Assembly: GCA_020052935.1 (NCBI GenBank)
Contig: JAGVOD010000027.1
Coordinates: forward strand, 1-35,446
From: an archaeon
Lineage (GTDB): Archaea; Nanobdellota; Nanobdellia; Woesearchaeales; UBA11576
DNA: 35,446 nucleotides
Direction: 5' to 3'
Below are positions 1-31,350 of the stretch, one piece after another; positions within the stretch are counted from its first letter, which is position 1, and each line of letters begins with the position of its first letter. Both the position numbers and the translations under genes were made by a program. The notes under the pieces are model-generated. The model made no database searches. It saw only the letters and a program-made list of their open reading frames with translations, and had not been told where the DNA came from.

Positions 1-200
1 TCACCGCCGAACGAGGATACGTCAACGCCTGAAAGGCTTGACGAGGGAGCGAGGCGGAACGGGGATTATAAGGGGTCGCAACCCCTTATCTCATACTGAA
101 AAATCCAATTATTTCAGTTACTAAATTTGTTGCACTAGCGGGCTAAAAAGGCAACGACGGCCACGCTGCTGCTAATGTTCACCTCGGTTTTGCTCTTATA
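1..200. repeat. Truncated hairpin-rich intergenic element (long sub-family), cut by window edge
   Basis: Hairpins CGTCAAcGCC-tgaa-GGCTTGACG (~20-43) and ATAAGGGGT-cgca-ACCCCTTAT (68-89). Motif CTGAAAAATCCAATTATTTCAGTTACTAAATTTG...GCGGGCTAAAAAGGC (from 96) and CCTCGGTTTTGC (182-193) are shared with the 29339-29641 locus. Confidence 0.6.
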
Positions 201-17394: not shown

Positions 17395-17616
17395 GCAAAT
17401 TCACAGCCGTCGCCGCCAATCAGCCCGCTACAACGGCGAATTTAGTCATAGAAATAATAGGATTTTCTCAGTTTAGCTTCGCAAAAGATAGTTAGGCGGG
17501 CGTGGCGGCGACGAGAGCTGAGTGAGCATTTAAAATGCCGCAGCATTTTTAATGTGCTCAGAAACCAAAGGTTTCTGACACAGCAGCGAACGAGGCGAAG
17601 TAGGCTGTGAATTTGC
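17395..17616. repeat. Hairpin element (long sub-family, shared motif on minus strand), 13-bp TIR GCAAATTCACAGC/GCTGTGAATTTGC
   Basis: Perfect TIR 17395-17407/17604-17616; inner IR CGTCGCCGCC/GGCGGCGACG (17408-17417/17504-17513); hairpins 17532-17549 and 17558-17578. Confidence 0.75.
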
Positions 17617-17664: not shown

Positions 17665-18693
17665 ATGGAAACCGAGATGCAAAATCTCATAAAGCAGGCA
17701 AACAAGGCATTCCTCTCAGAGTTCAAGCCAGAGACCTGTTTCGGAAGATGCATATTCTTGAGCTGGTACTGCGATGTCGGCACGTGCAAGTTCTGCTTCC
17801 GCTCGACAATAAAGCACAAGATAAGATACGCGAAGAACGCCAAGAGGACACTCGAATCTGTGCTGGCAGACGCGCTCATCAGCAAGAAGATGGGATGGCG
17901 GCTGGAGTTCCTGACAGGCGGATACAGGATCTTCTCACCCGACGAGATGCTGGATATAATCAAGAAGGTGTCTGAGGTATACGGCGAGAAGATATGGATC
18001 AACCTTGGGACCATGGACAAAGATAGGCTGGCTAAGCTGAACCCATACGTCCAGGGAGTATGCGCATCAATAGAGACTGTCGAGCCTGGGCTGCACAGTA
18101 AGATATGCCCTGACAAGCCGATTGCACCCTACTCAGAGATGCTCAAGCAGGCGAAAGAGCTGGGATTCAAGACAAGCATCACGATAGTAATAGGCCTCGG
18201 CGAGAAAAAAGAGGACTTTCCTCTGCTGGAGAAGTTCATATCTGAGCATAAGCTGGACAGGATAACGTTCTATGCGCTGAAGCCAGTACGCGGGACTGAA
18301 TACACTGCGAGCCCTGAACCAGAACAATATGCCTGGTGGATAGCGAAGACGAGGATAAGATTCCCGAAGCTCGAGATAATGTCCGGCCTGACGCCAAAGA
18401 AAGTCGAGTATGCAGAACTGCTGCTTATAGCTGGAGCGAACGCAATAACAAAATTCCCTGCGATAAAGCAATTCAATTCTTTGAACGCAAAATCGATAGA
18501 AAAGCAGGCTGCTGCGGCAGGAAGGAAATTCCTGGGAAGCCTCACAGAGATGCCAAGGATAGATTGGGACAAAGAGATAGAGAATCTGCCATTCGACAAA
18601 GAGCTGAAACGCAGGATAAAAGCGAAACTCGAGCAGCAGCTAGAGACGATGAGGAAGACGAAGAAAACGACTGCGGATGATGAATTCTGCTGA
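17665..18693 (+). CDS. Radical SAM protein with CX4CX2C cluster motif
   Basis: LSWYCDVGTCKFCFRST; LTGGYRIFSPDEML; Rossmann/TIM-like segments; GLGEKKEDF. Confidence 0.78.
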   Translation: METEMQNLIKQANKAFLSEFKPETCFGRCIFLSWYCDVGTCKFCFRSTIKHKIRYAKNAKRTLESVLADALISKKMGWRLEFLTGGYRIFSPDEMLDIIKKVSEVYGEKIWINLGTMDKDRLAKLNPYVQGVCASIETVEPGLHSKICPDKPIAPYSEMLKQAKELGFKTSITIVIGLGEKKEDFPLLEKFISEHKLDRITFYALKPVRGTEYTASPEPEQYAWWIAKTRIRFPKLEIMSGLTPKKVEYAELLLIAGANAITKFPAIKQFNSLNAKSIEKQAAAAGRKFLGSLTEMPRIDWDKEIENLPFDKELKRRIKAKLEQQLETMRKTKKTTADDEFC

Positions 18694-18876
18694 AAGCGGT
18701 GCCACGCCATGCTACGCTTGTTTATTAGCTTCCTGAAACGTGACCTCCCCGTAAGTCTCTCAAACCCTTGGTTTGTGAGAAGTTACGAACGCCGGGCGTT
18801 CGAAACTGGACTTCCCCCCGTCACGTGCTATTTTCTAACCGAAAAACGCTTCGCAAAATGGCGGTGGCACCGCTTT
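18693..18876. repeat. Hairpin element copy E2, 13-bp TIR AAAGCGGTGCCAC/GTGGCACCGCTTT (18694/18864 region)
   Basis: TIR ~18693-18705/18864-18876; stem ACGTGAC/GTCACGT (18738-18744/18820-18826); nested hairpins ~18756-18780 and CGAACGC-cgg-GCGTTCG (18786-18802); CTCCCCGTA partial core. Confidence 0.75.
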
Positions 18877-20559: not shown

Positions 20560-20576
20560 TCAAATAAAAGTAGCAG

Positions 20577-20738
20577 GCTCTGTAGAAAAGTTCACCTTCG
20601 GTGGGTGCCGCCAGGCTTCGCGCCACAATCCTGTTTCTGTAGACCTGACATCCCCGTAGGGGGCTTCCCCCTGTCAGGTGCAATAGTGCAGCAGATATGC
20701 ACTTCGCAAAAAGGCGGCACCTCACTTTTCTACAGAGC
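20577..20738. repeat. Hairpin element copy E3, 14-bp TIR GCTCTGTAGAAAAG/CTTTTCTACAGAGC
   Basis: TIR 20577-20590/20725-20738; second IR GGTGCCGCC/GGCGGCACC; stem ACCTGACA/TGTCAGGT (20643-20650/20672-20679); core TCCCCGTAGGGGGCTTCCCCC (20651-20671). Confidence 0.8.
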
Positions 20739-20750
20739 TGAATCAGCCAT

Positions 20751-29338: not shown

Positions 29339-29641
29339 AGGCAGTGCCGCGCTAGGCTACGCCCTGATTCGCAAAACCGAGGCCTGTTTCGATGCTTCGC
29401 ATTGTAACCCTTCAGGCCGCTGCGTCCTGAAGTGACTCGCCTCGTCGAGCCTCGTGACGCCAAGCCCGCCTATTCTGTTTTACGAAGTTAGTCTGATAAA
29501 ACCCAATTATTTCGTTGACTAATTTCGCCTATGTGGCGGGCTATAAGGGCGAATCCGCCTACGGCGGAAGGGTCGCGTTCGCTTCGCTCGCGACCGTCAC
29601 CAGCCTCGGTTTTGCTATTGTTATTGGCGGCGCCACTGCCT
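29339..29641. repeat. Long hairpin element copy E4, TIR AGGCAGTG/CACTGCCT
   Basis: TIR 29339-29346/29634-29641; inner 12-bp IR GCAAAACCGAGG/CCTCGGTTTTGC (29371-29382/29604-29615); hairpins TCCGCC-tac-GGCGGA (29554-29568) and GGTCGCG/CGCGACC (29571-29577/29589-29595). Confidence 0.78.
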
Positions 29642-31162: not shown

Positions 31163-31320
31163 GGGCAGTGCCGCGCCAGGCTGCGCTAAATTAGCAGTGG
31201 CACGCGAGGCTCGGCGTGCATCGGTTTTGTTGATTGGGCTATCTCCCCGTAGGGGGCATCCCCCGATAACGCCCCTGCAGATATTGTAGAAACGCCTCGC
31301 GAATTCGCGGTGCCACTGCT
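31163..31320. repeat. Hairpin element copy E5 (31193-31320, TIR AGCAGTGGCAC/GTGCCACTGCT) abutting a left-end fragment (31163-31190)
   Basis: TIR 31193-31203/31310-31320; core TCCCCGTAGGGGGCATCCCCC (31244-31264) with stem GGGC-TATC/GATA-ac-GCCC; fragment GGCAGTGCCGCGCCAGGCTGCGCT. Confidence 0.75.
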
Positions 31321-31350
31321 TAAGAAGTTATTGGCTATGCTGCTAAATCT

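Follow-up and report, generated by a model that had tools for sequence, protein, structure and literature searches.

Nested-hairpin elements of two related types in intergenic DNA of a DPANN archaeal order: probable modular descendants of MITEs

The window, by which we mean the whole 35,446-nt stretch analysed here, comes from an archaeal genome of 1.64 Mb (G000; 117 contigs, 85% complete) and carries copies of two types of hairpin-rich element, one long and one short. In the list below, R1 is the model of the short core and R2 the covariance model of the long-type motif.

1-95: end of another repeat
96-193, + strand: long-type copy 1, right part only, with the motif (105-130), S1′ (GCGGGC), A′ (GGCAACGAC) and the right outer-stem arms; R2 match 65-163, 41 bits
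252-385, − strand: short-type element with P1 and its bulged C, the GNA/GNA loop, P3 and the G/C-rich tip; R1 138.9 bits, fold z −4.7
17395-17616, − strand: long-type copy 2, complete (inverted pair I3), with outer stem 17395-17408/17603-17616, A 17504-17512 with A′ 17409-17417, S1 17496-17501 with 17423-17428, mini-hairpin 17476-17482 and motif 17439-17461; R2 127 bits, fold z −8.3
18693-18876, − strand: short-type element interrupted by extra small hairpins; R1 101 bits
18939-19859, + strand: gene with a class III adenylate/guanylate cyclase domain (Guanylate_cyc 1.7e-27), adjoining a short element
20576-20739, − strand: short-type element that keeps a transposon-like terminal repeat, GGCTCTGTAGAAAA at 20576-20589 with its complement at 20726-20739; R1 78 bits
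26544-28868, − strand: ABC transporter ATPase gene with an in-frame intein containing a LAGLIDADG-like domain (Pfam Intein_splicing 1.3e-25, LAGLIDADG_3 1.9e-16)
29340-29640, + strand: long-type copy 3, complete and nested, with a P1 shell (29340-29358/29626-29640), a second stem (GCAAAACCGAGG, 29371-29382/29604-29615), the motif (29503-29530) and extra inner hairpins; R2 82 bits, fold z −6.2
31191-31322, − strand: short-type element (repeat family D3), next to a further right-end-like P1 sequence at 31164-31186; R1 103 bits

Copy 1 has no left stems because a different repeat, at 1-95, replaces its left side. Five contig ends (C12, C53, C22, C30 and C21) carry that repeat with 98-100% identity, in each case followed by unrelated sequence after TCTCAT, and it is probably an element whose recent activity interrupted the assembly.

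A preliminary description had placed a motif of about 60 nt at three loci of the window. When the window was searched with CCNATTATTTCNNTNACTAA, allowing up to two mismatches, exactly three matches were found, at 105-124 (+), 17442-17461 (−) and 29503-29522 (+), compared with 0.04 expected from dinucleotide shuffles, and the coordinates and quoted sequences of the description proved right (its 'E5 CATCGGTTTTGTTG' was given without coordinates). The genome-wide search that it proposed returns about 60 copies in G000: ATTATTTCNNTNACTAANTT with up to two mismatches occurs at 52 places, versus 3 for the reversed control, and R2 yields 59 hits with E ≤ 0.01. Complete copies are found within blocks that end in hairpins and mostly measure ∼150-300 nt, and the motif occurs without surrounding inverted repeats only in truncated or interrupted copies such as the one at 96-193. 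The proposed consensus holds for CC-N-ATTATTTC-NN-T-N-ACTAA, whereas its 5′ end (CTGAnAAAA) is not conserved genome-wide; in the aligned genome copies, the conserved region also includes GC-GAA-GC upstream and GCGGGC/GGC downstream.

In complete long copies, the motif forms the center of nested, covarying inverted stems. Read on the motif strand, the 5′ part consists of an outer stem (GCAAAGCCACG), variable hairpins, stem A (GTCGCCGCC), stem S1 (GCCCGC) and a T-rich stretch. A two-base-pair mini-hairpin (GC-GAA-GC) follows, then TAA, ∼12 variable bases and CC-N-ATTATTTC-NN-T-N-ACTAA-N-TT-N-G, and the 3′ part comprises box B (GCCG or GTTG), S1′ (GCGGGC), about six bases, A′ (GGCGGCGAC) and the outer stem CGTGGCTTTGC. 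The A-A′ and S1-S1′ pairings covary, as does the mini-hairpin (GCGAAGC, CCGAAGG, ACGAAGT), and the stem covariation exceeds that of all shuffles and slid controls. A possible pseudoknot between B and A′ covaries as well as A-A′ does, the two pairings being inseparable because the sequences of A and B are nearly the same. As described earlier, CCTCGGTTTTGC is common to the first and third loci (182-193 and 29604-29615), and in the third it pairs with GCAAAACCGAGG at 29371-29382. It is one of many outer-stem variants, for which the opposite side almost always shows the complementary change, as in the GCAAATTCACAGCC/GGCTGTGAATTTGC outer stem of copy 2 (17395-17616). At two further loci (bases 1-99 of L028 and of L069, on contigs C76 and C75), the contigs begin with the same ∼99-nt sequence, directly before a long-type element, and small hairpin-rich inserts inside elements are identical repeats themselves (L028, L069).

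The short elements of the preliminary description form one family of ∼130 nt, or ∼165 nt with terminal repeats, and R1 finds at least 57 copies in G000. On one strand, the left arm reads P1 (AGCAGTGCCA, an extra C, CGCCA), four or five bases, GC-GNA-GC, a spacer and P3; the tip is GGGGG-NNG-CCCC-N-TACGGGGA; and the right arm reads P3′, a spacer, GC-GNA-GC and TGGCG-TGGCACTGCT. Among 32 copies compared, mean identity is 68% and the maximum 86%, which marks them as old, and identity falls to 47% in the spacers and P3. Of 480 P1 cells, 471 are nonetheless Watson-Crick pairs; A-C is absent, and there are two G-T oppositions, both at the terminal pair. In the 14 inner pairs of P1, 35 cells are compensated and none is uncompensated, where independence of the two sides would predict 54 non-paired cells; the cells are not independent events, because the copies share ancestry.

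Perfect arms might be explained without any function of the fold if these were ordinary MITEs whose arms look conserved only through continual replication template switching between them. Template switching is known to make the arms of inverted repeats alike and to preserve hairpins (PMC8604942, PMC8794818), and both the missing G-T intermediates and the multi-base changes agree with it. However, copying between arms is expected to erase unpaired features lying between perfect stems, and these are invariant: the bulged C is found in all 32 short copies, and the GNA/GNA loop keeps its G-A oppositions in 31-32 of 32. The 20-nt spacers also remain non-complementary and the tip is conserved across the order. 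We therefore regard template switching alone as an unlikely explanation.

The substitution spectrum bears on whether the folded molecule is DNA or RNA. Selection for RNA would tolerate G-U but not A-C. P1 contains 22 GT and 18 AC oppositions among 1725 Watson-Crick pairs, so there is no clear G-T excess, and there is a slight lean in P3 (5 GT versus 0 AC among 756 Watson-Crick pairs) and in the long stems (14 versus 6 among 539). Nor do the elements show a clear bias in orientation relative to neighboring genes. Because P1 lacks a clear GT excess and the elements lack a clear direction, these sequence comparisons suggest, with moderate confidence, that the hairpins reflect folding of DNA and not of RNA. 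A structured RNA, either cis-regulatory or a small RNA, that has been copied many times would account for the strong covariation, for the covarying possible B-A′ pseudoknot and for the conserved tip, which allows an alternative C-UACG-G hairpin, and the counts in P3 and the long stems lean toward RNA. With no clear excess in P1, no clear direction relative to genes and no Rfam family, we consider an RNA distinctly improbable. Rfam searches, at curated thresholds for the window and at E ≤ 1 for six loci, gave nothing on the elements and no match above the gathering score; the one archaeal RNase P match belongs to a neighboring gene.

Outside P1, many short-type elements have outer shells of transposon-type terminal repeats flanked by perfect direct target duplications of 8-11 bp. 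The duplications are 8 bp for GTATTTGTTTAGC ends (including L041 in G000) and for GGCGTTATTG/GGCGTTATTGAAAA ends, 9 bp for GGCTCTGTAG, GGCTCTGTAGAAAA and GGCTCTGTCC ends, ∼9 bp for GGTCGCATTGAAAA ends and 11 bp for GGGTTGGTGCG/GGGTTGGTGCGAAA ends. In one relative (G007), cores that are up to 83% identical carry ends of both the 11-bp and the 9-bp type. Many short copies in G000 are without recognizable terminal repeats; the window element at 20576-20739 retains ends of the IS5-associated type. One such repeat, GGCTCTGTAGAAAAT, also starts longer multicopy sequences at contig ends in two relatives (G001 and G009), and the protein end encoded in the sequences that it bounds has full-length relatives in the order. 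One of these matches DDE_Tnp_1 (1.2e-11) and IS5_2 (1e-34, with a score below NCBI's cut-off), which identifies it by sequence as a putative DDE transposase of an IS5-like type; a more distant relative lies inside an element with 9-bp duplications (L303). PF01609 proteins of G009 were rejected as movers, their matches occurring without these ends. For terminal repeats other than GGCTCTGTAGAAAAT no match to an autonomous element was found, no intact autonomous copy with both GGCTCTGTAGAAAAT ends was recovered, and no PF01609 (DDE_Tnp_1) protein is found in the 85%-complete G000.

The short type thus has the terminal inverted repeats and target duplications of a MITE and, for GGCTCTGTAGAAAAT, ends that match a transposase-associated element. 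The long type lacks the duplications (0 of 42 copies), and its mobility is unproven because of this and because the short copies of G000 are mostly without recognizable terminal repeats. We also considered single-strand recombination elements, namely integron attC-like sites or IS200/IS605/REP hairpins that are recognized as folded single strands. Such elements would fit the hairpin shape, the extrahelical base in the stem and the lack of target duplications in long copies. No Y1 transposase (PF01797, Y1_Tnp) is found in G000 at 85% completeness, however, inspection by eye revealed no attC boxes (R′/R′′), and the perfect target duplications and DDE-type terminal repeats of short copies weaken the idea further; we judge it very improbable.

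To compare sites across species, loci of G000 were matched by their flanks to loci of two relatives (G001 and G002). Only element-bearing loci were used, so the pairs give no frequency. Both species carry long elements at L017/L168 and at L051/L161. At the latter, one species has the outer stem GCAAATTCGTG/CACGAATTTGC with GCCCGC/GCGGGC as S1, and the other has GCAGATTCGTG/CACGAATCTGC with GCGCAT/ATGCGC; these compensatory differences indicate that the sequence at this site changed without loss of pairing. At the orthologous junction L128/L212, the outer stem is GCAGTGGC/GCCACTGC in both species, but L128 encloses a long module and L212 a short core. A third junction carries, in G002, a short element within GTATTTGTTTAGC ends and, in G000, a long module in a P1 shell beside the remnant AGCTAAACA. 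L045 is the empty site of L214.

The L128/L212 pair bears on the proposal that the longer type is related to the short elements through shared ends, as do the long modules enclosed by a short-type P1 stem at 29340-29640 of the window and at L119 (17525-17870). The relationship holds; the 'shared ends', though, are structural stems rather than transposon termini. The original observation was real, and its inference about the long and short types is largely supported.

The two cores differ in their distribution. R1 matches occur in 24 of 59 sampled genomes of the order, at dozens per genome at most, and among 281 sampled genomes of the class all those with matches at E ≤ 1e-5 belong to this same order. 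Over 84,980 species, the exact tip pattern was found in 30 stretches, all 30 in MAGs named Woesearchaeota or Nanoarchaeota, and it was absent from 2.9 million viral contigs. The long core is restricted to the genus, with 59, 13, 2 and 1 R2 matches in four species; in the sister species, several weaker matches keep the stems without the motif. A plain pattern search of relatives showed no enrichment and was misleading, the covariance models having recovered the relatives' copies. Among the openly available publications retrieved on MITEs, palindromes and transposable elements of Woesearchaeota or DPANN archaea, no title or abstract describes these elements, and an order-wide core inside unrelated transposon ends is, as far as we could find, undescribed.

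The interpretation that we favor, and hold to be probable, is that these are non-autonomous, modular, MITE-derived nested-hairpin elements in intergenic regions of a DPANN order (Woesearchaeota by record names) that are maintained as DNA structure. It draws directly on the observed copy number, stems and covariation, on the ends and duplications of the short type, on the different ends around related cores and on the different interiors at shared sites. Each element would be built like a nested doll, its structured core enclosed by an outer shell that can be exchanged and that consists either of transposon terminal repeats or of a P1-like stem. The short type would be a MITE moved, now or formerly, in trans by DDE transposases, IS5-like ones for the GGCTCTGTAGAAAA shell, leaving 8-11 bp duplications. 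The 60-nt motif would be the center of a genus-specific alternative inner module that replaces the short core in P1-type shells. Because long copies have no duplications, we suggest that this module arose within the genus and came to lie in P1-type shells either through recombination or by inserting itself inside the hairpin. What is conserved would be the ability of a DNA strand to fold, as a hairpin or cruciform, rather than an RNA, with selection, perhaps aided by template-switch repair between the arms, keeping the stems paired.

Known systems share parts of this organization. Prokaryotic MITEs (PMC10969869) are likewise short, geneless and intergenic, with terminal inverted repeats, target duplications, stem-loops and ends shared with an autonomous insertion sequence. 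In the elements described here, by contrast, cores related to one another are found with terminal repeats of several unrelated kinds, covariation extends to stems that are not the ends, and neither the bulge nor the unpaired loop varies; inner modules replace one another inside a single shell, and the long type lacks duplications. REP/REPIN palindromes are also numerous, dispersed and intergenic, with a bulge or mismatch in the stem, but ours are much longer and nested, and G000 has no Y1 (RAYT-type) transposase. The ERIC-type elements of enterobacteria (PMC2759123), intergenic imperfect palindromes of ∼127 bp, are alike in form; they belong to a different domain of life and have no described exchange of ends. 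Mitochondrial double-hairpin elements (e.g. PMC4478555) are alike by description, being intergenic with hairpins in pairs and inside one another, whereas the present elements lie in an archaeal chromosome and have DDE-type transposon ends and an order-wide conserved tip and internal loop.

A bolder idea, which we put forward tentatively and think possible though somewhat doubtful, is that the folded core is its own kind of DNA module. It would travel with MITEs as a passenger or parasite, moving from the shell of one transposon family into that of another, unrelated one, and after insertion it would be kept as folding DNA at the same positions in different species because its hairpin is of use to the cell or to the element. 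If our interpretation is right, miniature transposons can be modular, the ends seen by a transposase and the folded core that persists being inherited separately. The dozens of diverged copies in a genome, together with the many genomes and the pairs at shared sites, provide a natural data set for weighing selection against template-switch repair as the source of perfect pairing, and the elements fill many intergenic regions in an archaeal lineage about which little is known. Two of the relatives also harbor a very large miniature-transposon population: GTATTTGTTTAGCT, with at most one mismatch, occurs 106 times in G007 and 214 times in G009, with many inverted pairs ∼140-250 bp apart.
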